Origin: a virus
IMG/VR virus record: IMGVR_UViG_3300038701_002844
Coordinates: 1 to 30,093 of that record
Reading direction: 5' to 3' (one strand)
DNA length: 30,093 nt
Part shown: positions 6,013-29,930 of the stretch, in pieces
Position numbering within the stretch: the stretch's first letter is position 1
Layout: the number at the start of each line of letters is the position of its first letter
Position numbers and translations under genes: made by a program
Notes under the pieces: model-generated
What the model saw: only the letters and a program-made list of their open reading frames with translations
Database searches by the model: none
What the model was told of the DNA's origin: nothing

Positions 6013-6708
6013 TTAAGCGGGAGTTGAGAGGTGGGAGGGGGAGGAGATCGCCTTGCGAGGCGGCAGCTTGAGAGCAGCGCGGGACTGGTCGGATAGCCAG
6101 CTCCCTTCCCAGTGATGGATCGCGAGCGAATCCGCAGGCGGCACGCCGGGACGTTCCCAGGGAGCGAAGGGGCAAGTGATCTGGTAAGGGAGCAAATCGA
6201 CGCCGCCGGAGTCTTTCGCGACCGATTCCAGCCACGGGCCGGAGAAGGTCAGAGCGAGAAGTTGCCCAAAGGAGGATCGCTCGATGCGGTCGATGACTGC
6301 CGCCATTTGGCTTGATCCTTCCTCGGCATAGATCCAGCCGTTTTGAGAGGTCAGCCCCCAGGGATGGCCCGGGGTGTGCCAGTGGGCTCCGGACGCCCCG
6401 AGGGCGAATTCCTTACCGGCGAGAACTTTTGAAAAGTTACCCAGGCATTCCATGTCCATGTCGGCATACATGCCGCCGAATTCAGCGAGCACGACCAGGC
6501 GCAGGAGATCGGCGCGGGTCGCATTGCCCAGGCAAAGAGGAGCGAGCTTGCGGTAAAGCGGGAATTGTTCGGCGTTCTGGTCGGTCCAGATTTTATATTC
6601 CCAGTCGCCATGGTGGAAGCGCCAGCCTTTCGACCACTTGACGAATTCCGGCGGCTTCGGATTGTCGCCGAGCCAGATTTGATGAATGATTTTCGTTACG
6701 TTGTTCAT
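6013..6708 (-). CDS. Family-32-type glycosyltransferase (DXD)
   Basis: The 231-aa protein has the hallmarks of the GT32 glycosyltransferases (DXD sugar-binding region): N-terminal IIHQIWLG (about 7-14), the ADLLRLVVLAEFGGMYADMD block (67-86) with metal-binding D83-x-D85, and a late HHWEGSW motif. Such enzymes transfer a sugar from a nucleotide-sugar donor, using a divalent metal held by the DXD. It has no signal peptide or membrane segment and should act in the cytoplasm. It lies inside the head-tail operon, overlapping the gp36-like stop by ATGA. This suggests it modifies a virion protein or phage-induced surface component; the acceptor is unknown. A glycosyltransferase at this place is not part of the classical Mu gene set. 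Confidence 0.85.
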   Translation of the reverse strand: MNNVTKIIHQIWLGDNPKPPEFVKWSKGWRFHHGDWEYKIWTDQNAEQFPLYRKLAPLCLGNATRADLLRLVVLAEFGGMYADMDMECLGNFSKVLAGKEFALGASGAHWHTPGHPWGLTSQNGWIYAEEGSSQMAAVIDRIERSSFGQLLALTFSGPWLESVAKDSGGVDLLPYQITCPFAPWERPGVPPADSLAIHHWEGSWLSDQSRAALKLPPRKAISSPSHLSTPA

Positions 6709-12475: not shown

Positions 12476-12923
12476 AGCTTTCCCTCCAGGCGTCGAGTTT
12501 TTCGGAAGTCCAGAATCCCCCCTCTTCGTCGCGGCTGTTTTTAGTAGCGTCGATGTGCATCATGAGGGAGTCGATGGAGACCAGCATGGTGTGGGGGGCG
12601 ATCTGGATGTAGTCGACAAATCCGGCGTAGCAGAGACGCCGCATGGTGGTGTACGATAAACCCTCGATTTTGAGAGCTTTGGCGATGGTCATGGTCTCGG
12701 TGAGCCGGACGTAGCCGAGTTGATCGCCTGCGGGTTCGAGGGCGAATTCGCCGTCTTGGCCGGTGACAACTTTGGCGATGGTGTAAACGGGGAGGTCGGT
12801 TTCCTCGCCTACGACAAATTGACCAGGGGCGACTTCGGCCCAGTCGGATTCTCCGGAGGGTGGAGGGGCGGTGTAGGTGGCCTCCATGCCGGGTAATTCG
12901 GCGAAATCCAAATTTGCGCTCAT
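12465..12923 (-). CDS. Putative winged-helix DNA-binding protein
   Basis: The 152-aa product has an acidic N-terminal half with beta segments (PGQFVVGEETDLPVYTIAKVV) and a C-terminal part that looks like an excisionase or MerR-type wing helix: VRLTETMTIAKALKIEGLSYTTMRRLCYAGFVDYI (about 71-106). The helix-turn-helix reading is from pattern alone. It follows the DnaA-like gene with an ATGA overlap, so the two may form a regulatory pair at the early-to-late border of the operon. Direct family membership is not recognised. Confidence 0.55.
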   Translation of the reverse strand: MSANLDFAELPGMEATYTAPPPSGESDWAEVAPGQFVVGEETDLPVYTIAKVVTGQDGEFALEPAGDQLGYVRLTETMTIAKALKIEGLSYTTMRRLCYAGFVDYIQIAPHTMLVSIDSLMMHIDATKNSRDEEGGFWTSEKLDAWRESYVW

Positions 12924-13399
12924 TTGCGATCTGAGGGGGGGTTGGGTTTCTGGACCTCATGCCACGTTCTTTCCGCGATAGGCTCTCTTACCCTGCGGCG
13001 AAGTGCGGCGGCGGGCATATTTGAGAGCCGCCGTTGATACGCTTGGTCGATGACCTGCCATTGCTGGCCTTCGATGGTGTTTTCGCGAATCGCGGCCTGG
13101 ATGCGGCGGACCCAGTGGATGACGGTACCGTGGTGGAGATAGAAGACGCGACCAATTTCGGTGAGGGTGCGCTCGGTGTGCCTCCGCATGAGCCAGAGGG
13201 CGGTGCCACGGGCCTTGGCGAGGTGGGCTTCGCGGGTGCCGCTGCGGAGGGCACTCTCGGTGACACTGAAGGAGGCGCAGACTTGCTCGACGGCGGGCCG
13301 AAACCATTCGATGGGATGGCCGCGCCGGATGGCGTGCAGGCGGGCTTCGATCTCGGTGGAGAGTTCGCTGAGGGTGAAGTTTTCAAGGGCGGGGTTCAT
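12920..13399 (-). CDS. DnaA domain-IV-like DNA-binding protein
   Basis: The 159-aa protein resembles only the C-terminal DNA-binding domain of DnaA. Residues about 30-108 contain FSVTESALRSGTREAHLAKARGTALWLMRRHT, then LTEIGRVFYLHHGTVIH. The AR..A.WL.R..T...L.EIG..F...H.TVIH pattern is the DnaA signature. No AAA+ part is present. It lies between early and late genes where Mu encodes Mor and C, whose fold is also helix-turn-helix, so it may be the switch to late expression. A role in replication is the alternative. The start overlaps the upstream stop by ATGA. Confidence 0.75.
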   Translation of the reverse strand: MNPALENFTLSELSTEIEARLHAIRRGHPIEWFRPAVEQVCASFSVTESALRSGTREAHLAKARGTALWLMRRHTERTLTEIGRVFYLHHGTVIHWVRRIQAAIRENTIEGQQWQVIDQAYQRRLSNMPAAALRRRVREPIAERTWHEVQKPNPPSDRK

Positions 13400-14217
13400 T
13401 GGTCGCCTTTCTGCTTGCGGTTGCGGTTGCGGGTTTTGCCTCTCCCCTCCTTCGCGGCGATGCGGTTCTTGATGGTATGGCAGAGCTGTTCCAGGGCGAG
13501 GGCCGGGAGGGTGATGAGGCTCTCGAAGTCGCTGAGGGTGTTTTTGGGATTCTTACGCTTGGCGACAGTCATGACGTAGGCCGCGCCGATGGTCCCGGCG
13601 TTCTCGTGGCCGCTCTCCTGGTGGTCTTTGAGGAGTCTGACCAGGCGGTCGATGAGTTGCTCGCGGTTCTCGATGGTGTCCTTGGGAGCGCGGGATTGCT
13701 TGCCGGTGACGAGGCTTGTGGGTTCATCGAAGGGCTTGCCGGCGAGGGCGAGGAATTCGGCGCGGAGGGGGCGGAAGTCATCGTTTCGCAGTTCCTGGAA
13801 GGAGCGCTTGCCGGTGATGCGGTGGCAGACGTTGGCGCGGAAGTTGGTGAAACGTTCGGTCTTGGTCTTGCCGGTCTCTTCGACGAGGTCGTAGGCTTCG
13901 AGGTGGTCGAATGCTTGGCGGGCGGTGATGGCCATGGCCTGAATCTGCTTCCTGGAAAGCGGCGGATTACTGGTGGTCTGCGGCTTGGCGGCGGACTTGC
14001 GGCGGGGGCGCTGTTTCCAGGACTCGCCTGCGAGGGGCTCGACAGTTGGTTCGAGCGGCTGGGCCTTGCCATCGAAGCGCCAGCCCATGGCGAGGCAGAG
14101 TTCTTTGGCGAGTTCCTCGTTGGTGGCGTCGAACTGATGGGACTTGGCACCGGCGTCTTCGGGCTGGCCGTCCTTTGGCGGGATGGTGGCCGTGAAGGTG
14201 ATCTGGGGGATGCTCAT
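13396..14217 (-). CDS. Hypothetical middle gene, possible gp16/GemA-related
   Basis: The 273-aa protein has a basic linker (about 70-85) and a helical centre, TARQAFDHLEAYDLVEETGKTKTERF and CHRITGKRSFQELRNDDFRPLRAEF. The TGK-x-S...L block recalls Mu gp16-type (DUF1018) proteins, but the match is weak and the protein is longer. The C-terminus is very basic (RGKTRNRNRKQKGDQ), which could bind nucleic acid. It comes directly before the DnaA-like gene with ATGA overlap, which fits a middle regulatory gene. Confidence 0.55.
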   Translation of the reverse strand: MSIPQITFTATIPPKDGQPEDAGAKSHQFDATNEELAKELCLAMGWRFDGKAQPLEPTVEPLAGESWKQRPRRKSAAKPQTTSNPPLSRKQIQAMAITARQAFDHLEAYDLVEETGKTKTERFTNFRANVCHRITGKRSFQELRNDDFRPLRAEFLALAGKPFDEPTSLVTGKQSRAPKDTIENREQLIDRLVRLLKDHQESGHENAGTIGAAYVMTVAKRKNPKNTLSDFESLITLPALALEQLCHTIKNRIAAKEGRGKTRNRNRKQKGDQ

Positions 14218-20470: not shown

Positions 20471-20917
20471 ATGAAAAAATCACACAATAGCGATTTTATT
20501 TCGCGCTTACGCGATTTAATGAAGGAGCACAACCTGAGCAATGCGGCGGATCTGGCTCGGCATTGTGATGTAGGGTGGTCAACTGCTAACCAATGGTTGC
20601 AAGGCTCGATCCCTCGAAAGCATTCACTTCACAACCTGGCATCACGTTTACGAGTCACGTCTTCATGGCTTGAAACTGGCGAGGGAAAGCGGGAGCCAGT
20701 GAATAAGGACGCAGTCGAGAGCGGGAGCCTTGCCGAACACGAGGTCGAATTTAACCAAAACCACGACCACCACCGAGCGCTCGTGAAGGCGCTGGTCGAG
20801 AAGATGCGGAAGGTGGAGGTGCTTGACCTGGTGGATGAGCTTCTCCGGAAGTCAAAGACAGCGAAGGCACAAATCTTGATTGACTTATTGCGAGAAAGAG
20901 AGAGGAGAGAGGAATGA
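20471..20917 (+). CDS. XRE-type phage repressor
   Basis: The 148-aa protein has an N-terminal XRE helix-turn-helix (about 9-70: ISRLRDLMKEHNLSNAADLARHCDVGWSTANQWLQGSIPRKHSLHNLASRLRVTSSWLETG). The rest is acidic then helical (ALVKALVEKMRKVEVLDLVDELL) and may form the oligomer contact. There is no LexA-like peptidase domain, so RecA-driven self-cleavage is not expected and induction would differ from lambda. It is divergent from the Ner-like gene with 37 bp between start codons, which matches the lysogeny switch of transposable phages. Confidence 0.85.
   Translation: MKKSHNSDFISRLRDLMKEHNLSNAADLARHCDVGWSTANQWLQGSIPRKHSLHNLASRLRVTSSWLETGEGKREPVNKDAVESGSLAEHEVEFNQNHDHHRALVKALVEKMRKVEVLDLVDELLRKSKTAKAQILIDLLRERERREE
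20501..20516 (-). promoter_or_regulatory. Candidate operator 2, inside the repressor gene start
   Basis: On the minus strand the bases read AATCGCGTAAGCGCGA, differing from operator 1 at two of 16 positions and opposite in direction. It lies in codons 11-16 of the repressor gene, as might be expected when the intergenic gap is too short to hold all binding sites. Confidence 0.45.
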
Positions 20918-21096
20918 AAAACCCAAGCGCAAAAGACCTCCCGATAATGTGGCAAGTGTTCGTCTTGGTGGCGATGGTGGTGGCGTTTTTCGTTTTCGCT
21001 TATGGGGCGAGACCGATTTTGGCGGCTGGCATTTTCTTGGGCGCGATTGTTGCGTCGTGGATCAAGGGGCTGACGATGCGGTCGGCTGGGGATTGA
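20914..21096 (+). CDS. Small two-pass membrane protein after the repressor
   Basis: The 60-aa product has two hydrophobic segments (about 12-31 and 35-50) separated by a short GARP loop. The start overlaps the repressor stop (ATGA) so it is likely made in the lysogen together with the repressor, and a late-promoter-like element follows it. A membrane protein made with the repressor could serve superinfection exclusion; a holin role is less likely given the separation from the lysis operon. Family not recognised. Confidence 0.65.
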   Translation: MKNPSAKDLPIMWQVFVLVAMVVAFFVFAYGARPILAAGIFLGAIVASWIKGLTMRSAGD

Positions 21097-21124
21097 CCTC
21101 CATCGCTCCCACCGCGTTTTGAGG
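21097..21124 (+). promoter_or_regulatory. 28-bp element upstream of lysis-packaging arm, candidate late promoter
   Basis: Starting right after the stop of the 60-aa gene, this holds CCTCCATCGCTCCCAC, one variable base, GCGTTTTG, one variable base and GG. It is 26/28 identical to the element at 9604-9631 before the protease gene. The distance to the next start codon is about 32 bp, against about 30 bp for the other copy. It is in non-coding DNA at the head of a late arm, as expected of a promoter or activator site (compare Mu P_lys). Confidence 0.6.
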
Positions 21125-21156
21125 CGGATTGAAATAGCGTTCATGCTCTCTCTTGC

Positions 21157-21480
21157 ATGGACGCTCTTTTTTTACCTTTGGCAGCTGGCTCGACCGGATC
21201 GAATTCGGGTTGGGCTTGGGCGGCGGGCTTGATTGTGGCGCTTTGCCTGGTTGATCGAGCGATGGCAGCTTGGCGGGGGGCGAAAGTGGAGGATATGGCG
21301 CGAGATTTGAAGCGGGACGGGATTGTGACGCGGTCGGAATTTACCCAGGAGACGGCGCGGATTTTAGAAACGCACAAGGAAACGGAGGCTCGCCTGGAGA
21401 GTCTGGAGCGGTCGTTTGAGCAGGAACTGAGGAGCATTCACCGGACGCTGGGCCGGATCGAGGGGGCTTTGCAAAAGTAG
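21157..21480 (+). CDS. Membrane-anchored coiled-coil protein, Mu gp25/DUF2730-like
   Basis: The 107-aa product has one N-terminal membrane segment (about 18-37, GWAWAAGLIVALCLVDRAMA) followed by a long charged coiled coil (about 48-106) ending LESLERSFEQELRSIHRTLGRIEGALQ. This layout is that of the DUF2730 proteins which precede the packaging genes in Mu-like phages. The role is unknown; it is often placed near lysis genes. It is the first gene after the 28-bp element, so it opens the right late arm. Confidence 0.65.
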   Translation: MDALFLPLAAGSTGSNSGWAWAAGLIVALCLVDRAMAAWRGAKVEDMARDLKRDGIVTRSEFTQETARILETHKETEARLESLERSFEQELRSIHRTLGRIEGALQK

Positions 21481-21486
21481 GACGCT

Positions 21487-21792
21487 ATGGACTTGGATTT
21501 ACTGACGAGCATTCCATCGGAGATTTTCGCCGGGGCGATTGCATGGTTTCTGATTCGCTGGCTGACGGGGCAGATCGCGGGTCAGCTGCGGGAGATCAAG
21601 GCGGCGACGACGGCGCAGACGCTGACGAACATCGAGCATTATAAATTCGCGCTGATCCACGATGCGCAGAGTCGCGGGGTGCATGAGCCAGGAGAAGAGG
21701 ATGTCTCGGCGGTGCATCGCCTGGCGTTCGAGGAATACCAGAAGATCAATGATTCTCTCTCCAACCTGAAAGACCAGATTTCGAAATTATGA
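21487..21792 (+). CDS. Membrane-anchored helical protein
   Basis: The 101-aa product has one hydrophobic segment (about 12-32, FAGAIAWFLIRWLTGQIAG) and a long helical remainder with a C-terminal coiled coil (INDSLSNLKDQISKL). It resembles its upstream neighbour in plan but not clearly in sequence. It could partner it in the envelope during lysis, for instance as a spanin-like or hemolysin-like accessory; this is inference. Its stop overlaps the next start. Confidence 0.6.
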   Translation: MDLDLLTSIPSEIFAGAIAWFLIRWLTGQIAGQLREIKAATTAQTLTNIEHYKFALIHDAQSRGVHEPGEEDVSAVHRLAFEEYQKINDSLSNLKDQISKL

Positions 21793-22049
21793 ATAACGAT
21801 CAAGAAGCGCGTGAGGAATGCCGTCGGGAGGTGTTGAACTATTTGGCCAACCGGCCTGCGGTCGCGTTGAGTCGCGATACGATCCGGCGAGGTCTGGCGA
21901 GGGAGTTCGACTTTGAGGACGCGGAGATCCTGCATGCCTGCGCGTTTTTGGTGAGCCGGGGTTTCGCGAGCGAGAAGCACGCGGACCTGGGGGCAACCCG
22001 ATACTATCAAATTTCTGCCGATGGCACGCTGGCGCACGAACGCGCTTAA
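21789..22049 (+). CDS. Winged-helix protein, Mu gp26-like
   Basis: The 86-aa protein reads as a winged helix: REVLNYLANRP, then LSRDTIRRGLAREFDFEDAEILHACAFLVSRGFASEK and a wing with YYQISADGTLA. The pattern and place fit the Mu gp26 type found before the packaging genes. DNA binding is inferred from fold. ATGA overlap with the upstream gene shows coupling. Confidence 0.6.
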   Translation: MNNDQEAREECRREVLNYLANRPAVALSRDTIRRGLAREFDFEDAEILHACAFLVSRGFASEKHADLGATRYYQISADGTLAHERA

Positions 22050-22076
22050 TCCCGAACCTGAACCTGATATTTTCTC

Positions 22077-22229
22077 ATGAACGAAACTTACGCTCCCCTC
22101 ACCTACGTCCCCAACTTCGAGCGGGGGCCTGCGAATTTGGCGATCCCTGCGCCGCCTAGCTATTACCGGCCCGCGAGCCAGCGACAGAAGCGCAAGACGG
22201 CTCGGCGGGCGAACAATCGTAAACGATAA
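22077..22229 (+). CDS. 50-aa Pro/Tyr-rich basic-tailed protein
   Basis: The ORF encodes MNETYAPLTYVPNFERGP, a Pro/Tyr-rich middle (AIPAPPSYYRPAS), and a strongly basic end (QRQKRKTARRANNRKR). It fills the gap between the winged-helix gene and the holin candidate, with short spacers on both sides, no Shine-Dalgarno. The family is unknown. The basic end suggests nucleic acid or membrane surface binding. Confidence 0.5.
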   Translation: MNETYAPLTYVPNFERGPANLAIPAPPSYYRPASQRQKRKTARRANNRKR

Positions 22230-22240
22230 CTTCCACCCTT

Positions 22241-22462
22241 ATGAACGAAATTCCGAAACCTCTCCCGGTCTCGCGGTCGGGAATCCGAACGACCGAGTTC
22301 TGGCTGGTGCTGCTGGCCAACCTGCTGATCGCGGCGATGACCTACTTTGACCAGGTGCCCGGCGTGGCCGGAGCGGTCGCGATGGGGTTGTTGACGCTGG
22401 TCTATAACTCTCTTCGTACTTCCATCAAAACCAAACTGCTCGAATCCAATGAAACCGATTAA
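22241..22462 (+). CDS. Putative holin
   Basis: The 73-aa protein has a polar start, a first membrane segment (about 19-36, TEFWLVLLANLLIAAMTYF) and a second (about 42-58, AGAVAMGLLTLVYNSL), then a short charged C-terminus. Two-pass topology, length and position one gene before the amidase match a class II-type holin, which would open the inner membrane for lysis. It overlaps the lipoprotein gene by 14 bp. Holins share little sequence, so this rests on topology and context. Confidence 0.65.
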   Translation: MNEIPKPLPVSRSGIRTTEFWLVLLANLLIAAMTYFDQVPGVAGAVAMGLLTLVYNSLRTSIKTKLLESNETD

Positions 22463-22718
22463 ACCAACCCTCTTGTCTCTGGCCTGCCTTGCCCTGGCAT
22501 CGTGCGCGATTCCCGATGCGCTGAAATCGGGAGTGAGCGGCGGGGTCTATTTGACGAGCGAAGAATACGGAGCGAAGGCGGGGCTTGAATATGAGGACGG
22601 CGAGGGCCGGGCCTTTGCGCGAAAAGATTTCCGCGATCCGGTGACGGGCGAGTTGCTCGCGCGGACGGAGATTGAGAAGCGATTCGGCACGGAGCCGGAA
22701 ATCCTCGGCGATAAATAA
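22449..22718 (+). CDS. Small lipoprotein in the lysis cassette
   Basis: The 89-aa protein has a signal peptide ending in the lipobox LASC, with C19 as the lipidated residue. The mature part is 71 aa, hydrophilic and acidic. Placed between holin and endolysin genes, it may be an outer-membrane spanin-like subunit that helps break the outer membrane; it lacks the usual Pro-rich stretch of o-spanins, so this is tentative. Its presence fits a Gram-negative-type host envelope. Confidence 0.65.
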   Translation: MKPIKPTLLSLACLALASCAIPDALKSGVSGGVYLTSEEYGAKAGLEYEDGEGRAFARKDFRDPVTGELLARTEIEKRFGTEPEILGDK

Positions 22719-22719
22719 T

Positions 22720-22778
22720 TTCTCACTGCATGAGAACCCGAGCCGGGAGGGTTTTGGCTGTTTTTTCCCTCCCGGCTC
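22720..22778 (+). promoter_or_regulatory. Tandem hairpins before the endolysin gene
   Basis: A 6-bp hairpin (22720-22725 with 22731-22736) is followed by a perfect 12-bp hairpin (arms 22740-22751 and 22767-22778, GAGCCGGGAGGG; 15-nt T-rich loop). The second ends 19 bp before the amidase ATG. There is no T run after the stem, so a leaky terminator, RNA processing site or translational brake on the endolysin is more likely than a full terminator. Confidence 0.55.
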
Positions 22779-22797
22779 ACTCCCCCTCTTTAATACT

Positions 22798-23562
22798 ATG
22801 TCTGAACAAACCACGTTAACGTCGGCCCGCTGGGAGCTGCTCAATGGCGATCATGATCTCTCTCCGGAGACGGCAGAGATTGCGCTGAATTTGCTGAATG
22901 AGCGCATTGGATACCCGCCGCCGAGACTCGGGCTGACGGAGAGCGATCACGGCGAGGCTTATGATTTAACCGGGACGATCGCGCTGGTCGTGGGCCATGG
23001 GCGACCGGTTGACCAGGGCACGACGGCGCATGACGGGACGGTGGAGGAGGTTTGGAATCGGGCGTTGGTCCAGGCGGTCGCGAAGCGAATCCGGGCGCTG
23101 GCCCCGGGACTGAATGTGGTGAGGCTTCTGGATTACGAGGGATCGAGCTATGGTCGAGCGATGAGCTGGGTCGCTGGAAAGCTAGATGCGATTCCGGGGC
23201 TTTTGTTCGGGGTTGAGTTTCATTTCAACGCTTACAATGGGAGCGCGGAGGGGTTCGAGTATCTCTACTGGCATAAGAGCTTTAAGGGAAAGCGGCTGGC
23301 GTCGATTTTCCAGGACCGGCATGCGAAGAAGTTTCCTCGCCAGGAAAACCGAGGGGTTGAGCCTCTGGGCGACCAGGCGCATGAACGGGGTTTGCTTTTT
23401 TGCAAACTGCCGAAAGCGCCGACGATCATTGCCGAGCCGGGCTTTGGCGATAACCCGGAGGATGCCGAGCACTTCCTGCACGGCGCAGGGCGCGAGCGGC
23501 TGATCGAACACTATGCGCAGTCGTGCATTGCCGCCGCCGCTGAATTTGACACCGCAATTTAG
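22798..23562 (+). CDS. N-acetylmuramoyl-L-alanine amidase endolysin (Amidase_3 type)
   Basis: The 254-aa protein has the zinc amidase pattern: IALVVGHGRP (H67), TVEEVWNRALV (E83 or E84), VEFHFNAYNG (H142) and IIAEPGFGDNPEDA (E213, the usual catalytic Glu). It cleaves the bond between MurNAc and L-Ala in peptidoglycan. The first 50 residues (RWELLNGDHDLSPETAEIALNLLNERIGY) lie outside the catalytic domain and may help in substrate binding. No signal peptide is seen, so it depends on a holin for release. The frame is open upstream to 22672 but that would run through the hairpins; the ATG at 22798 is chosen. Confidence 0.88.
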   Translation: MSEQTTLTSARWELLNGDHDLSPETAEIALNLLNERIGYPPPRLGLTESDHGEAYDLTGTIALVVGHGRPVDQGTTAHDGTVEEVWNRALVQAVAKRIRALAPGLNVVRLLDYEGSSYGRAMSWVAGKLDAIPGLLFGVEFHFNAYNGSAEGFEYLYWHKSFKGKRLASIFQDRHAKKFPRQENRGVEPLGDQAHERGLLFCKLPKAPTIIAEPGFGDNPEDAEHFLHGAGRERLIEHYAQSCIAAAAEFDTAI

Positions 23563-23565
23563 ACT

Positions 23566-23814
23566 ATGACATTCGAAACGACAGACCCGCAGGAGTTCAC
23601 GATCCGGAACTACCAACGACATTACATCTCGGCTGACGGCGGAGACCTGACCGTGAAGCGCAAGCTTGAGGATGGGACTTGGTCGGAGGTTGAGGGCTCG
23701 CCGGTCTCGGACGGCGAAGAACGGATTTTGCTGACTTCAACAAGCGGCGGAAAGATCCAAGTGACGCCGTCGGCTATCGATACTCAAATGAGCCTGGGAG
23801 CTATCTTGGAATGA
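23566..23814 (+). CDS. Hypothetical small beta-rich protein
   Basis: The 82-aa product is not recognised. It has an alternating beta pattern (FTIRNYQRHYISADGGDLTVKRKLEDGTWSEVEGSPV, ILLTSTSGGKIQVTPS). Small proteins of this kind are common in fibre or head-decoration cassettes. It comes right after the endolysin, overlapping the next start by ATGA. Confidence 0.55.
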   Translation: MTFETTDPQEFTIRNYQRHYISADGGDLTVKRKLEDGTWSEVEGSPVSDGEERILLTSTSGGKIQVTPSAIDTQMSLGAILE

Positions 23815-24032
23815 TCTATCGCGATCCAAATTTGACGGCGGGGATTCTGCCAGGCGGCGGGATTATCGGCGGGGCTGGGATTCATACGCTGTCCGGGGAG
23901 TCGCCAGCGCTAGAGCCTGCGAACTTACTCAGCGAAGGGGGCACCGATAGACTAATCCGACCTGTCGGAGACACCACGACTGAACACCTGGTAGCACCCG
24001 GCGGGCAGCGATACGACATTCAACCAATATAA
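23811..24032 (+). CDS. Hypothetical Gly/Pro-rich small protein
   Basis: The 73-aa product is not recognised. It has a Gly-rich stretch (AGILPGGGIIGGAGIHTLSG), then a soluble end with GGQRYDIQPI. It belongs to the cassette between lysis and packaging, probably virion accessory genes. Confidence 0.5.
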   Translation: MIYRDPNLTAGILPGGGIIGGAGIHTLSGESPALEPANLLSEGGTDRLIRPVGDTTTEHLVAPGGQRYDIQPI

Positions 24033-24035
24033 ATT

Positions 24036-24476
24036 ATGGCAGACGTAAATTTAACGACCGCGACATTCAGATTCTTGACAGACCAAAGCCTGTCGGGCGC
24101 TCAAAAAACAGCGCTGCTAACAGCGCTGGGAGCAGCGAGTCAAGACATCGTCGATAACTACCTCACCCCTCTTACTCCTACGGCGGGGGCGGCGATTTCA
24201 ATCGACTTTAACGGCAAGAGTCAGGCACACATTGACGGGGCACTCTCGACGAATGCGACGATCACAATTGCGAATGTAAACGACGGTCAGACATTCGCCA
24301 TCGCCGGACAACAGGACGGAACCGGCGGGCGGTCAGTGACTATTTCAAGCACTGGTTGGAGCGACGTGATCGGGGACACGTCCAGCATTGCGGAGGCTGG
24401 AGCCAATGCTCACTTCATCGTCACGGGGCGACGGACGGGAGCTAGTCTATTCGTGACCACAACTGTATTCGAGTAA
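24036..24476 (+). CDS. Putative tail-fibre or virion accessory protein
   Basis: The 146-aa product starts MADVNLTTATFRFLTDQSLSGAQKTALLTALGA and continues with Thr/Ser/Gly-rich beta strands (ATITIANVNDGQTFAIAGQQDGTGGRSVTISSTGWSDVIG). This looks like a small trimeric-fibre or adhesin-type domain. The local base composition is less GC-biased than the neighbouring genes. The function is inferred from look and position. The next gene starts at the last base of its stop codon. Confidence 0.5.
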   Translation: MADVNLTTATFRFLTDQSLSGAQKTALLTALGAASQDIVDNYLTPLTPTAGAAISIDFNGKSQAHIDGALSTNATITIANVNDGQTFAIAGQQDGTGGRSVTISSTGWSDVIGDTSSIAEAGANAHFIVTGRRTGASLFVTTTVFE

Positions 24477-24964
24477 TGGATGGGATTGCGGGTCAGATGC
24501 TGCCGATTGCCTCGGGGCTCGGTAGAGTCACCAAGTCTGCTTTTGTGCGGGGAGGGGCATATTCGGCCACCCCTCAAGACTCCTCAACGGAGCTACTTAT
24601 GAAACACGCGGCCAGCGATACCTACGTGCGGCGGATCTATGTCAGAATCGAGGGTCACGATGGGGCTGATGCCACGTTGACGCTGTTTGACAATGGAGCT
24701 GATGCGCGGGATTTTTCGCTGGCGTTCGACGTTATGATTATCACCGGAGATTTTGTTTCCGGCACGGTCACATGGGACAATGCCCCAACTGGCTCTCTCT
24801 TAACAACGGGTAATCACGATCATCCCGGCAACCTTGTCCTGCCGTTAACGGGTTTGCCAGTCGGAGATTTCACAATCGGTCTGTTCCCGACATCTCAAGG
24901 CGCTGATGATCCTCAGGGCCGGTTTGCCTCTCACGGGGGCAGTTCTCCCCCAACTCTTTCTTAA
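24476..24964 (+). CDS. Putative virion/fibre protein, beta-sandwich-like
   Basis: The 162-aa product has a beta-rich look (TYVRRIYVRIEGHDGADATLTLFDNGADARDFSLAFDVMIITGDFVSGTVTWDN), as in carbohydrate-binding or fibre head domains, and a Gly/His-rich late part (TTGNHDHPGNLVLP). No diagnostic motif. It may form the receptor-binding part together with its neighbours. The ATG overlaps the upstream stop by one base. Confidence 0.5.
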   Translation: MDGIAGQMLPIASGLGRVTKSAFVRGGAYSATPQDSSTELLMKHAASDTYVRRIYVRIEGHDGADATLTLFDNGADARDFSLAFDVMIITGDFVSGTVTWDNAPTGSLLTTGNHDHPGNLVLPLTGLPVGDFTIGLFPTSQGADDPQGRFASHGGSSPPTLS

Positions 24965-24966
24965 AT

Positions 24967-25452
24967 ATGAACCCCTATAAACTCTACGACACACAGACCT
25001 CCGAGTTCGCGACCCGGCCCGTTGGCGGCCACCCCGTTATCCGGCGCGTTGGAGACCCTCAAACATTCAATTTCGGCCTGCCTGATGGGTATGAATATGT
25101 GGAAGATTTGCCTCCTATTCAAAACCCCACGCCCGCTACCCATAAGCTAGCGCGGATCAAGCCTACAGATGGGGTGTATGGCTGGCAGCTGGTGGAACTT
25201 TCGCCAGAAGAAATCGCTTCGCGAAGACTGCAACCTATTACCAAGCTGACGCTCATGCGGAGGTTGCAAAACGTCGGCAAGTGGGATTTGTTTAAGGCTG
25301 TTTTGATGAACCTCGATGAGGAGCTGCAAGATGCCTGGGCGCTCGCCCAAGACATTCGGGGAGACGACCCTCTGTTTACGGAAAACGCGGCTGCGCTGCG
25401 TGAGTTGCTTAATCTGACCGAGGCGGAAATGAACGATTTGTTGACTCCGTGA
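24967..25452 (+). CDS. Putative fibre-assembly or tail accessory protein
   Basis: The 161-aa product has a polar N-terminal half (MNPYKLYDTQTSEFATRPVGGHPVIRRVGD) and a helical C-terminal half (ITKLTLMRRLQNVGKWDLFKAVLMNLDEELQDAWALAQDIRGDDPLF...LLNLTEAEMNDLL). A short protein with this split after fibre-like genes recalls fibre-assembly chaperones, and its second half also resembles small phage proteins of the same position that follow tail fibres. Not firmly recognised. Confidence 0.5.
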   Translation: MNPYKLYDTQTSEFATRPVGGHPVIRRVGDPQTFNFGLPDGYEYVEDLPPIQNPTPATHKLARIKPTDGVYGWQLVELSPEEIASRRLQPITKLTLMRRLQNVGKWDLFKAVLMNLDEELQDAWALAQDIRGDDPLFTENAAALRELLNLTEAEMNDLLTP

Positions 25453-25464
25453 TTTTTCAAAGCG

Positions 25465-26127
25465 ATGAAATATTTTTTGATTTTTACTCTGCTTTTGACG
25501 AGCTGCACGACGCGGCATGGGGTTGGCCTGGGCGCTTTGGTTTTGGCCGGGGGGGCGGCGATTGCGATTGCGCAGCAAAAAGACTCCGATGAGGAGGATC
25601 GCGCGGCGCGACGGGAGGAACTGGAGGTGATCGAGGTGGATCAATCCGGGACGGTTTCTCAGCTGGGCGGGGCGATTATTTCGGCGACCGAGATCGCGCA
25701 TGTGACGCATTGGCCGGTGACGCCTGGGCAGACGATTACGATTGCGACGAACGATGGCGGGAGGGTTTCGCGGAAGGTGGTTTTGAAGACAGAATTGCTG
25801 GCGGATTTGTCGATTTTGCATTTGGACAGGCCGCTGGATTTATCCCGGCACACTCTGCTGGGCATCGCGCCGGCGCAGGTCGGGGAGGCGGTGACGATTG
25901 AGCGGCTGAACCGGCAACCGATTGCGACCTGGATCACGAATGCGACAGAGGCGCAGGTGTTCGCCGATACGGATGAGAGGACGATTCAAAGCGGGGATTC
26001 GGGCAAGCGCCGGATTCAAATGATCGAGGGCAAGCCGCATGTGGTTTCGCTGAATTCGACGATGAAAGGGCAAGGACCGAACTTGCACAAACTTCTCCAA
26101 GATTACTCCCAGACTGGACAGAAATAA
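25465..26127 (+). CDS. Trypsin-like serine peptidase-fold lipoprotein
   Basis: The 220-aa protein starts with a signal peptide and lipobox LLTSC (C14 lipidated). The body follows the chymotrypsin plan: GGAIISATEIAHVTHW with H79 or H82 as candidate His, ELLADLSILHLDRPL with D114 in the place of the catalytic Asp, and RTIQSGDSGK with GDSG at 177-180 (S179). After it comes KPHVVSLNST like the strand that follows the active Ser. It would be anchored in the envelope. Activity is not shown; the site is intact by eye. It lies between the fibre cassette and the packaging genes and touches the gp27 start. Roles may be in lysis, exclusion of other phages, or lysogenic conversion. Confidence 0.72.
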   Translation: MKYFLIFTLLLTSCTTRHGVGLGALVLAGGAAIAIAQQKDSDEEDRAARREELEVIEVDQSGTVSQLGGAIISATEIAHVTHWPVTPGQTITIATNDGGRVSRKVVLKTELLADLSILHLDRPLDLSRHTLLGIAPAQVGEAVTIERLNRQPIATWITNATEAQVFADTDERTIQSGDSGKRRIQMIEGKPHVVSLNSTMKGQGPNLHKLLQDYSQTGQK

Positions 26128-26768
26128 TGGCTCGCCAAGGTAAAATCGCACGTCTGCCGCATGCTCTGCGGGACCGGGTAAATCGGGCTCTCCTGAATGG
26201 GGAGACGGCTCGGGAATTGTTGGGCTGGTTGAACCAGGAGGCGGAGGCGATTGAGACTTGGGAACAGCACTTCGAAGGAGCGGAGGCGAATCCGCAGAAC
26301 CTGAGCGAGTGGCGGCTTGGAGGATACAAGGACTGGATCCGGAAACGGGAGAAGGTTGAGAATCTGAAGACGCTGTCTTCGTTCTGCCTGGACGCGGCGA
26401 AGGCGGGGCAGAATATCAGCGATGGCGCGGCGGCTATCGCGGCGGGCGAGCTGCTCCAAGCGCTGGAGGAAGCGGCTCACGATGAGGACGCTGACCTGGG
26501 GAAATTGACCTCGGCGATCTCGGGGATCCGGGCGGGAAACATCGCGCAGGCGCGGCTGGATCTGGACCGCGCGAAGCACGAGACGAAGCGCGAGGAAGTG
26601 GCGCTGAGTCGCGATAAGTTCGAGCGGCAGACGGTGGAGCAGTTTTTGAAATTCGCGAAGACGAAGGAGGCACAGGCGATCCTGGACAGCGGGAAGTCTA
26701 AGTCGGTGCAGATGTCGGAGATGCGCAAGCTGATGTTTGGGGAGCGACCAGGGAGGAAGAAGAAATGA
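26127..26768 (+). CDS. Terminase small-subunit-like protein, Mu gp27 (DUF3486)
   Basis: The 213-aa protein matches DUF3486: RQGKIARLPHALRDRVNRALLNGETARELLGWLNQE (about 3-38), then NPQNLSEWRLGGYKDWIRKRE (about 55-75), followed by a long helical and coiled-coil region. The family lies directly before the large terminase in Mu-like phages and is taken as the small terminase that recognises phage DNA. The C-terminus is basic. It overlaps the terminase start (ATGA, 26765-26768). Confidence 0.85.
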   Translation: MARQGKIARLPHALRDRVNRALLNGETARELLGWLNQEAEAIETWEQHFEGAEANPQNLSEWRLGGYKDWIRKREKVENLKTLSSFCLDAAKAGQNISDGAAAIAAGELLQALEEAAHDEDADLGKLTSAISGIRAGNIAQARLDLDRAKHETKREEVALSRDKFERQTVEQFLKFAKTKEAQAILDSGKSKSVQMSEMRKLMFGERPGRKKK

Positions 26769-27682
26769 GTGAGGCGATTATTCAACTGCGGCCTTATCAG
26801 GACGTGGCTTTCGACCGGATGGAAGGCATGATGGCTTACGTTTGGAGACGGCAGAGCGGAAAGTCATTCACGCTGGGCTGTGTGGCGCTGGACTGGATGA
26901 TGGAGGCGGTTTGCGATGTGATTTTTGCGAGCGCGGCGATTCGCCTGGGAACAGAGAATATCCGGAAGGAGGCGGAGGTTTGGCGCATTATGACGGAGAC
27001 CTTGAGGGGGCAGATTAAAGCGGGCGGCGGCTACGATTTAACGACGAACGCGGATAACGATAAGGGCGAGTTGCTCGACGTTGACGCGATCGCGGACCTC
27101 TTCGAACATCAGAAGCTGGAGACGCGGCTTTGGCATAACCGGAGCCAGTGCAGCCGGTCGTTGGTGGTGGCGCCGAACCCGGACACGGCGGTCGGTTGGA
27201 CCGGTCATGTCATCATGGATGAGGTGGGGAGGATTCCGGATTTTCGGGACGTTTATGAGGCGATGGAGCCGATTGTTTCGGCGAATCAGAATTTCAGGAT
27301 TCGGCTGGCGACGACGCCGCCGCCGGATGATAGCCACTATTCCTATGAGCTGCTCGCGCCACCGGCAGGAAGCGAATTCAAGCCGAACGAAGCGGGGGAT
27401 TTTTACGAAAGCGAGGCAGGGCTTTTGGTGCATCGCGTGGATGCCTGGGACGGCTACGAGGCGGGGGTGCCGCTCTACAATCTGAAGAGCCGAGAGCCGC
27501 AGACGCCGGAGGAACATCGGGCGCTGGCGGTGGACCGCACGGCGTGGGATCGGAACTATGGCTTGAAGTTTATTTCCGGGGGGGCGGCGGCGATTTCTCG
27601 GCTCGCTTTGATGCGGGCGCAAGAGGCCGGTGCCGATGAGGGTTTCGGACGAAACATCACTGACCAACTGACTGCGACATGA
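26765..27682 (+). CDS. Large terminase, ATPase half (Mu gp28 N-terminal part)
   Basis: The 305-aa protein corresponds to the ATPase domain of Mu gp28-type large terminases. A Walker A-like RRQSGKS lies at 28-34, Walker B HVIMDEVGRI at 148-157, and the coupling motif RLATTPPPD follows near 178. The gene ends in a TGA that overlaps the ATG of the nuclease gene (27679-27682). Other Mu-like phages carry both domains in one protein of about 540 aa; here the sum is 537. Reading across would need a one-base shift, but termination and re-start on ATGA is used by many gene pairs in this genome. Confidence 0.85.
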   Translation: MSEAIIQLRPYQDVAFDRMEGMMAYVWRRQSGKSFTLGCVALDWMMEAVCDVIFASAAIRLGTENIRKEAEVWRIMTETLRGQIKAGGGYDLTTNADNDKGELLDVDAIADLFEHQKLETRLWHNRSQCSRSLVVAPNPDTAVGWTGHVIMDEVGRIPDFRDVYEAMEPIVSANQNFRIRLATTPPPDDSHYSYELLAPPAGSEFKPNEAGDFYESEAGLLVHRVDAWDGYEAGVPLYNLKSREPQTPEEHRALAVDRTAWDRNYGLKFISGGAAAISRLALMRAQEAGADEGFGRNITDQLTAT

Positions 27683-28377
27683 TCAATCCACGAGAAGCAA
27701 TTCCCCGGTCCTGGCTCGATTACCTCGGCGGCGGAAGCCTGGGCGTGGGGATGGATTTGGGGACGACTGACAAAGGGACGTCGAACCCGAGCGCGATCAC
27801 GGTAGCGGAGAGAGATGGGCGCGGATTTAAGGGGCGACTGGTGGTGGCGTGGAAGACGGCGAACCCGGATATTTCGGAAGGGATTCTGCGGATGATTTTG
27901 GCGGACCTGGAGGATGCCGGGAAGCCTGCGCGGCGGGTTTGTCTGGACGCGTCGAACGAAACGTTTTTTTGCAAACACCTGAAGAAGTCGTTGTCGAGAT
28001 ATGCGCCGTTCTCGCTGATCAAAGGGGGGGAGAATTTGACTTTCGAGGGCGAGGAACACCAGGCAAAGACGTTGCTTGGAAATCTCTATGTGAACGCGCT
28101 GGAAGATGGGTTGTGGACGCTGCCATCGGGCGAGTTTATCCGAGACGATCAACGGCTGGTAGCAAAACAAAAAGGGTCGTTCATTTCGGCGACGAGCAAC
28201 AGCGGACAGCACGGCGATACTTTCGACTCCTGCAAGCTCGCGCAGTGGGCGCTGATCAAAGGCGGCGGACGGGTGCAGGCGGAGGCGGTGGCCGTGGGAG
28301 GATCTCAAAACAAACCGTTGCGGCCCGGACTCATCGGGCCGATTGGAAGGATCATTAAAAGCGTTCTGAATTCATGA
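27679..28377 (+). CDS. Large terminase, nuclease half (Mu gp28 C-terminal part)
   Basis: The 232-aa protein is the RNase H-like nuclease domain of a large terminase. Acidic metal ligands by position: D26 in GVGMDLG, D90 in RVCLDASNE and D180 or D183 in GQHGDTFDSCKL. These cut concatemeric or integrated phage DNA for headful packaging. It begins in the ATGA overlap with the ATPase gene and overlaps the portal start the same way (28374-28377), so the three are translated in series. Loss of the covalent link is unusual; see the matching finding. Confidence 0.85.
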   Translation: MINPREAIPRSWLDYLGGGSLGVGMDLGTTDKGTSNPSAITVAERDGRGFKGRLVVAWKTANPDISEGILRMILADLEDAGKPARRVCLDASNETFFCKHLKKSLSRYAPFSLIKGGENLTFEGEEHQAKTLLGNLYVNALEDGLWTLPSGEFIRDDQRLVAKQKGSFISATSNSGQHGDTFDSCKLAQWALIKGGGRVQAEAVAVGGSQNKPLRPGLIGPIGRIIKSVLNS

Positions 28378-29930
28378 ATATTATCCAAAAAGCCCTGGCG
28401 AAATTTTTGCCAACTACGACGCGCATTTTTGCAAACCGCCACCAGGAGCCGCGACCGGAATCGCGGACGATGGACGTGGACGAAATGCACACGATTTTGA
28501 AGCTCGCGGAGAGCGGAGATTGCGAGCGGCTTTTCGGGCTCTACCGGGACATTGTTTCGAGCCACTCGCACACGCAGGGCGAGTTCATGAAGCGGAAGCT
28601 GGCAGTGCTCGGCGACCCGATGAATTTCATTCCGGATGATAGCGAAAACGAGGTGCAGGTGAAGTTGGCGAACGATGTGAAGTCGCACCTTGAAGCGATG
28701 CCGAATTGGCTGGAAATCATGGCGCATTTGCTGGACTCGACGCTGTATCCGGTGGCCGTAGCCGAGCGGACTTATCGGCAGTCGCAAAAGCCGGGCTGGC
28801 GGTGGGAGATTTCAGAAATTTCCCAGCTGCCACACCATCATTTGACGTGGCCCGATGGCGTTCTCGAAATCCGCGAAACGGACGCGAGCGGATACTTCTC
28901 GGGACGCACTTCAGAGCTGGACGAAACGCGCCATATCCGGCACCGGGGAAACCTGCTGACGTCCGTGCCAGACTGGTGGGGAGGGCCGATGCGCGCGGTG
29001 GTTTTTTGGTGGCTATTTTCAGTCATGGACCGGGACTGGTGGACGCGGTTTTTGGACCGATTTGGCGCGCCGTTTTTGGAGGGCACCTACGACTCCTCAG
29101 ACGAGCGGGCGCGGTATGAATTGCAGAGCGCATTCAGCGCGGCGACGAAGCTGTTCGGGATCGTTGTTTCGGACGGGGCAAAGGTGAAAATGCATCAGGC
29201 GAATACAAGCTCGGCGGGAGATGCGTTTGAGAAATTTCACGCGGTCGCGAACAAGGAGATTTCCAAGATCATCGTGGGGCAGACGCTTTCAGCCGAAGGG
29301 GCGAACCTCGGCCTCGGCGGCGGCCAGGCCGGGGCGCAAGCAGAAGTGCGAGACGACATTCGGAAGTTGGATGCTCTGCTTCTCTCGACGACGATCAAGA
29401 CGCGCATCCTTCAGCCTCTCTGGAGAGTCAATGGTTGGGATACGCCAGTTCCCTCTGTCACGTTTGGTGGCGAGTCAACCAAGGATCAAGCTATTACCGG
29501 CACTCTTCTAAGCTCCCTTGCAGAAGCGGGTCTTCAGCTGACCGAGGATGGCCTCAATATCCTCTCCACGAGGCTCGGGCTTCCATTGGAGCGAGTGGCT
29601 CGGAATCCTGAAGAGACGATTGCTTTATCAGCCCGGACGCATGGCGAAATCTCTCTTCTCTCTGGGCCAGCTCGCAGGAACGAAAGGCAGCGGCAGGCCC
29701 GCCGCGCCACCGACGCAGTGATCGCGGCGGCATCGCCGCGCTTGGCCAAACACCTGCACTCCCAGACCAAGGACATCGAGGCCGCGATTCTCTCCGCCGC
29801 CTCCCCCGACGAAGCCGTCGAGAAGGTCGCCGTTCTCACGGCGGGTCTCGATCAAACCGAGGCCGCAATGCTGGTCGCCGCGACGATGTCCGCCTGCTCT
29901 TGCAACGCCCTTGCCGCCCGCGACGACTGA
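28374..29930 (+). CDS. Portal protein, Mu gp29-like (DUF935)
   Basis: The 518-aa protein matches DUF935 portal proteins: LFGLYRDIVSSHSHTQGEFMKRKLAVLG (about 52-80), AERTYRQSQKPGW, RHRGNLLTSVPDWWGGPMRAVVFWW and WTRFLDRFGAPFLEG (about 185-245), and ISKIIVGQTLSAEGANLGLGGGQAGAQAEV (about 300-330). It forms the ring through which DNA enters and leaves the head. It is the last gene of the right arm; its stop overlaps the 11-bp terminal inverted repeat. In Mu it would be followed by gp30, which here is nearly 18 kb away on the other strand. Confidence 0.93.
   Translation: MNIIQKALAKFLPTTTRIFANRHQEPRPESRTMDVDEMHTILKLAESGDCERLFGLYRDIVSSHSHTQGEFMKRKLAVLGDPMNFIPDDSENEVQVKLANDVKSHLEAMPNWLEIMAHLLDSTLYPVAVAERTYRQSQKPGWRWEISEISQLPHHHLTWPDGVLEIRETDASGYFSGRTSELDETRHIRHRGNLLTSVPDWWGGPMRAVVFWWLFSVMDRDWWTRFLDRFGAPFLEGTYDSSDERARYELQSAFSAATKLFGIVVSDGAKVKMHQANTSSAGDAFEKFHAVANKEISKIIVGQTLSAEGANLGLGGGQAGAQAEVRDDIRKLDALLLSTTIKTRILQPLWRVNGWDTPVPSVTFGGESTKDQAITGTLLSSLAEAGLQLTEDGLNILSTRLGLPLERVARNPEETIALSARTHGEISLLSGPARRNERQRQARRATDAVIAAASPRLAKHLHSQTKDIEAAILSAASPDEAVEKVAVLTAGLDQTEAAMLVAATMSACSCNALAARDD

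Follow-up and report, generated by a model that had tools for sequence, protein, structure and literature searches.

A Mu-like phage of Verrucomicrobiota bacteria encodes a protein, P0001, that almost certainly holds a chymotrypsin-fold protease domain. Judged by its sequence, P0001 belongs, as a divergent member, to a protease family of Verrucomicrobiales and phages that has no name, and its relatives are no more than 25% identical to it. Chymotrypsin-fold proteases are a known kind of protein; none of the reference libraries searched has an entry for this family. The preliminary description had proposed that the Mu-like phage encodes an envelope-tied peptidase of the chymotrypsin fold, and the predicted fold, the conservation of the His and the lipobox all support that proposal. 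The window, that is, the whole stretch of DNA analyzed, is an entire IMG/VR record of 30,093 bases. The features of P0001 and its surroundings are given in Table 1.

Table 1. Coordinates of P0001, its sequence landmarks and the neighboring genes in the window
Feature	Position	Strand	Basis
Lysis region	22241..23562	+	PF01520 E 2.6e-14 for the Amidase_3 endolysin, 22795-23562
Holin-like gene	22241-22462	+	Match to ORF of kin
Small lipoprotein	22449-22718	+	Lipobox by sequence
Putative receptor-binding (fiber) cassette	23811..25452	+	ORFs 23811-24032, 24036-24476, 24476-24964, 24967-25452
P0001 gene, chymotrypsin-fold lipoprotein-type protease (predicted)	25465..26127	+	ORF, profiles, hhalign, predicted fold, aligned relatives
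Signal sequence and lipobox LTSC (residues 11-14), predicted	25465..25506	+	Sequence; Cys14 codon 25504-25506
Second hydrophobic stretch, residues 18-36 (linker or membrane segment)	25516..25572	+	Hydropathy
Predicted catalytic His82	25708..25710	+	His in 66/66 aligned relatives; in register in hhalign
Predicted catalytic Asp114 (DLSIL)	25804..25806	+	Asp in 66/66 aligned relatives
GDSG, residues 177-180; Ser179 at 25999-26001	25993..26004	+	G177, D178, S179 66/66; G180 65/66
Terminase small subunit	26127..26768	+	phrog_426 E 0.0019; kin 33-51% identical
Terminase large subunit, two ORFs (26765-27682, 27679-28377)	26765..28377	+	phrog_2 E 2.3e-8 (first ORF)
Portal protein, Mu type	28374..29930	+	PF06074 (Portal_Mu) E 2e-57

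Sequence features and predicted catalytic residues of P0001

The P0001 ORF runs from an ATG at 25465 to a TAA ending at 26127 and encodes 220 aa. Its GC content by codon position (0.59/0.43/0.70) is close to that of the terminase and portal genes. The N terminus, MKYFLIFTLLLTSC, includes the lipobox, and Cys14 of the lipobox is matched by a Cys in 29 of the 30 host relatives described below. We predict with good confidence that P0001 is a lipoprotein. However, the second hydrophobic stretch comes after the lipobox, and the membrane topology is therefore not certain. P0001 also carries the sequence GGAIIS.

When 66 relatives were aligned together, the columns of H82, D114, G177, D178, and S179 are identical in every sequence, and that of G180 is identical in all but one (65/66). 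Column 79 is mostly M or F. The preliminary description had left the catalytic His as either H79 or H82. We assign it to H82, because H82 is conserved in all of the aligned relatives and residue 79 is not, and H79 falls away as a candidate. The same description had named the absence of the His from close homologues as a sign against a protease. The His is kept in all 66 relatives, every one of which is distant, since no close homologue was found. A lipobox, DLSIL and GDSG, which it had listed in that order, are all present in the ORF (Cys14, D114, and S179). The His-Asp-Ser order is in register with the relatives both in this alignment and in the hhalign comparison given below.

The H-D-GDSG pattern of P0001 is more than chance. 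When the protein was shuffled 200,000 times, the pattern arose 14 times at the spacings of P0001. Among background ORFs of at least 100 aa, it was present in 1/12,608, 0/1,416, and 0/325. The sole background ORF with the pattern (L246) is a real HtrA protease. This protease also came up in a phylum-wide tblastn search, but its His is two positions off H82 in the pairwise alignment.

The motifs of P0001 differ from those of its relatives. The motif around the Ser is GDSGK(R), and is neither GDSGGP nor the GDSG[NH]P of the family, and HVTH is found where the family has an AxH motif. Membership in the family is also marked by GDSG followed by [N/H/S]P and by an ETHT-type strand, and P0001 has GDSGKR and VVSLNST instead. 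By motif, P0001 appears to be at best a divergent member of the unnamed family. The triad is kept, and we predict with high confidence that P0001 is an active enzyme.

Relatives in Verrucomicrobiales and uncultured phages

A tblastn search of 386 genomes from the order of G004 (Haloferula luteola) gave a match at E<=0.02 in seven of them. From these loci we retained L351, a 246-aa Verrucomicrobiales lipoprotein that aligns to residues 6 to 191 of P0001 with 24% identity. The best match, in L349 (E 4.3e-4), was dropped because it contains stop codons and other ORFs occupy the stretch. The matches in L350, L353, and L354 fall in unrelated proteins, and those in L244 and L352 are limited to the N-terminal region.

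At E<=0.01, 51 of the 239 genomes searched in the order of L351 had relatives of it, which are lipoproteins. Across the phylum, a profile search at E<=0.001 detected the family in 23 of 240 genomes. Along with the lipobox Cys (29/30), the 30 fetched host relatives have the His in 30/30, the Asp in 30/30, GDS in 30/30, and the following G in 29/30. Among 22 family members scanned, no Pfam or NCBIfam match above the cut-off was reported; Trypsin (PF00089) appeared in two of the 22, with a best E value of 0.01.

The Verrucomicrobiales lipoprotein proteases (L351 and L355 to L384) resemble P0001 in having a lipobox, the triad and GDSG in register, and a domain of similar length. However, they are host genes with the GDSG[NH]P and ETHT motifs, both of which are missing from P0001. 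Inspection by eye also indicates that L351 has no counterpart of the long hydrophobic stretch that follows the lipobox of P0001. Judged by eye, four host relatives (L484, L486, L487, and L488) seem to carry a PEP-CTERM-like sorting signal at their ends in place of an N-terminal lipobox. In L486, two of these PEP-CTERM-like protease-family genes are consecutive.

Family domains were also found in phages, at 10 loci at first and later in 108 confirmed viral stretches, the best 80 of which were kept. After removal of similar or short sequences, 36 of 101 viral domain stretches were used. The triad columns are identical in 36/36 of these domains, which are 15 to 25% identical to P0001. A looser triad pattern fits 59 of 72 distinct viral ORFs. 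The viral members are usually the C-terminal part of an ORF (median length, 409 aa), and a lipobox-like start is present in only 1 of the 72, apparently as a chance match. Thus, the phage-borne domains (L385 to L474, for example, L394) share the triad columns with P0001 and give it its best profile score, but they lie at the C-terminal end of long ORFs that, unlike P0001, have no convincing lipobox.

At E<=1e-3, the family domain was found in only 1 of 50,697 phage records. The host and viral profiles match each other with an E value of 3.6e-40. By sequence comparison, the family thus consists of lipoproteins in Verrucomicrobiales and of protein domains in uncultured phages. Within the library and terms searched, we found no description in the literature of the family or of a lipid-anchored phage form. 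The analysis makes visible an unnamed protease family that is common in one host order and in uncultured phages, and whose tested members reach no Pfam or NCBIfam cut-off.

Two arrangements were seen among the viral loci. The ORF at L394:2966-4549 has a T4-type tail sheath stabilizer (PF16724; E 1.5e-61) fused to a C-terminal protease-family domain with an intact triad, and its product is possibly a protease carried on the virion. L386 and L390, which are large uncultured phage contigs, have tandem gene pairs with the protease-family domain (ORFs near 2.9-4.1 kb and 5.4-6.7 kb).

Profile and single-sequence searches

Profiles built without P0001 recognized it. Among 24,737 ORFs, P0001 took the top rank both with a profile of 30 host relatives (E 0.0055) and with a profile of the 36 viral domains (E 5.3e-4). 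With both profiles, P0001 was also first against 5,000 shuffles. In hhalign, 22 host relatives matched residues 50 to 206 of P0001 with a probability of 89 and an E value of 2.3e-6, and H82, D114 and GDSG were in register. The terminase small subunit, used as a control in the same test, gave a probability of 0.2. An 8-member viral profile matched only the first barrel of P0001 (probability 41, E 2.9e-4). With an HtrA-type profile, made from 24 of 30 trypsin loci after six off-pattern loci were left out, P0001 came first in a set of 2,001 and, behind a true HtrA, second in the set of 24,737. However, profile A5 missed P0001 in a six-frame search of the window's own record.

Searches that started from the single sequence gave little. 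P0001 had no Pfam match even at E 10, the curated cut-offs of PF00089 and PF13365 were not reached, and nothing usable was obtained from PHROGs or NCBIfam. Peptide scans of viral and genome contigs found no relative, nor did tblastn of phages. A plasmid search gave one match only, at E 5. In the phylum-wide tblastn search, matches at E<=0.1 were present in 16 of 387 genomes, and these were partial or chance-like. Two phmmer matches in the PDB were rejected. The match to a TAL-type repeat protein was driven by the repeats, with one 22-residue stretch matching every repeat, and a receptor kinase was not accepted as a relative.

Predicted fold of P0001

The preliminary description had suggested structure prediction as a check, and AlphaFold2 with relatives returned a chymotrypsin-like fold. 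The model of P0001 made with the 36 viral domains had a mean pLDDT of 65.6 and a pTM of 0.63. It has the double beta-barrel of S1-like proteases in clan PA, with lower confidence in the second barrel (pLDDT of about 90 in the first and 56 to 83 in the second). In a Foldseek search with this model, the nearest solved structures were of the trypsin fold (best E 1.1e-5). VIA gave a Z of 14.5 against kallikrein 10 (rmsd 3.2 over 163 aligned residues) and a Z of 14.4 against chymotrypsin. A model from the single sequence of P0001 failed (pLDDT 37). Since the AlphaFold2 input alignment carried the triad columns, we take the model as support for the fold, not as independent proof.

P0001 therefore resembles trypsin/chymotrypsin (PF00089, S1) and HtrA (PF13365) in its predicted fold and in the order of its triad. 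HtrA/DegP proteins combine a protease with a PDZ domain, whereas P0001 has no PDZ or other Pfam match in its 220 residues. A DegP-like protease was ruled out because there is no PDZ domain.

The phage and its kin

Judged by its genes, the phage is Mu-like and belongs to Verrucomicrobiota hosts. The genome loci with the most similar head proteins (the five best, 41 to 46% identical) are Verrucomicrobiota prophages, and their portals are 40 to 49% identical. As far as each reaches, the five kin right arms have the order MuB, MuA, and ParB-like/repressor, and then terminase small subunit, terminase large subunit and portal. The same kind of terminase small subunit was found in 23 viral loci; one of these records is the same as the record of the G006 arm among the five.

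No P0001 homologue was found in the kin. A phmmer search over 40 loci gave a best E value of 1.0, and tblastn of the 23 kin virus records gave 0/23 at E<=1. A profile search of the kin for the P0001 family was also empty, but the profile used, A5, had failed to pick up P0001 in the window itself, and the absence from kin is therefore evidence against close copies only. The gene had been described as lying outside the known Mu set, and this holds insofar as no copy was found in the Verrucomicrobiota Mu-like kin, although an equally diverged copy could be missed.

Gene neighborhood and expression signals

P0001 lies in a same-strand run of a holin-like gene, a small lipoprotein gene, an amidase gene, receptor-binding-like ORFs, P0001, terminase and portal. 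A gap of 12 nt separates the receptor-binding-like cassette from the P0001 start, and the P0001 stop overlaps the start of the terminase small subunit gene by 1 nt (TAATG). A scan for consensus-type sites, which was at chance level overall, turned up nothing promoter-like around 25465 and, on the same strand, nothing terminator-like directly downstream of 26127. We therefore do not regard P0001 as a classical prophage moron, for which an own promoter and terminator would be the mark.

The ORFs just upstream of P0001 appear to behave as a receptor-binding cassette. ORF 24476-24964 has a sugar-binding-type domain (CBM96, E 1.7e-4; DNRLRE, E 7e-5; both under the cut-off). The outer ORFs of the cassette are 77% and 83% identical to ORFs in L503:3835-5486. 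L503 is a temperate phage with a tyrosine integrase, and the cassette is thus shared by a Mu-like and an integrase-type phage. The middle cassette gene is swapped in L503 for one with a different sugar-binding-type domain (F5/8 type C; E 6.9e-10). The next gene after the L503 cassette is a 208-aa ORF in place of the protease gene; by eye, it is similar to one of the lysis-region ORFs of a kin phage. P0001 is therefore not an obligate partner of the fiber cassette, since L503 has the cassette without the protease gene (n = 1), and this weakens the link to the receptor.

Proposed role of P0001

We suggest that P0001 is a late, membrane-anchored serine protease that cuts host envelope proteins and perhaps strips the phage receptor, a role to which we give even weight for and against. 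In this scenario, P0001 would be exported and lipid-anchored in the envelope. It would be made late in the lytic cycle, because its gene is in a same-strand run before the terminase genes and overlaps the terminase start. The anchored enzyme would cut host envelope proteins and would strip off or change the surface receptor that the phage itself uses. With the receptor gone or altered, infected cells and debris would neither readsorb progeny nor admit a second phage.

Receptor removal or alteration is our tentative first choice among the purposes of P0001. It is favored by a gene position analogous to that of llp in phage T5. According to the accessible part of a T5 report (PMC9586334), the gene for this exclusion lipoprotein lies directly downstream of the receptor-binding gene. 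P0001 is likened to Llp by gene position only; Llp is a small protein that binds FhuA and thereby blocks it, whereas P0001 has a protease domain. If true, the proposed role bears on superinfection exclusion by cutting, not blocking, a receptor, and an envelope protease would give direct access to the question of what phages of Verrucomicrobiota do to the surface of their hosts. A wider proposal, that phages of Verrucomicrobiota and others have repeatedly taken up the chymotrypsin-type family and that P0001 cleaves a receptor to bring about exclusion by proteolysis, seems to us rather unlikely.

Help with lysis is the next purpose and the main rival. The same enzyme might work with the holin, the amidase and the small lipoprotein to open the envelope or free virions. 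P0001 and the lysis region are on one strand and are likely coexpressed late, and kin have endolysin and small lipoprotein genes in that same interval. However, a holin-like gene, a small lipoprotein and an amidase are already available in the lysis region, the fiber-like cassette stands between it and P0001, and no such protease was found in kin with the same layout. We consider a lysis function somewhat unlikely.

It is improbable that the enzyme acts in the virion, where it might trim a tail or fiber protein or ride in the particle, as family domains of other phages appear to do. The P0001 gene does come after fiber-like ORFs, and in the viral relatives the domain forms the C-terminal end of a long ORF, in one case on the tail sheath stabilizer noted above. 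However, the signal sequence and lipobox should direct P0001 to the envelope, away from assembling particles, and the viral ORFs, with their single chance-like lipobox, do not share this start.

Equally improbable is a repurposed, inactive trypsin fold, which would bind a partner in the envelope but leave it uncut. Such folds exist, as in MamO (according to the accessible part of PMC4794232), and the GDSGK of P0001, in place of GDSGGP or GDSG[NH]P, and a different loop before the His fit this explanation. Against it, the triad and the GDSG of the oxyanion region are all kept, and a triad kept at no more than 25% identity elsewhere suggests selection for catalysis.

The least favored of the three roles in the preliminary description (lysis, exclusion of other phages, and change of the lysogen's surface) is lysogenic conversion, in which the prophage would express P0001 constitutively and alter the host surface: the close kin are prophages and surface lipoproteins are indeed encoded by temperate phages (Ltp of TP-J34, in the accessible part of PMC3952083), but the late-type same-strand run, the overlap with the terminase start, and the lack of an own promoter or terminator in the chance-level consensus scan make it very improbable.

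Other features of the phage genome

ORF 6013-6708 (-), between the head and tail genes, is presumably sugar transferase-like, judged by eye; NCBIfam gave a chance-level match only. One arm of the genome carries the terminase and portal genes and the other carries MuA, MuB, head and tail genes, and the arms diverge from the repressor (64-20236 on the minus strand and 20471-29930 on the plus strand). The same separation of the arms is seen in the kin loci, in contrast to the contiguous order in other Mu-like phages. As in the window, four of the five kin arms (L274 to L278) have a split terminase large subunit; in L278 it is fused, as a 563-aa frame. In L275, an extra ORF (about 12760-13545 in the reversed locus) is present between the two halves of the terminase large subunit.
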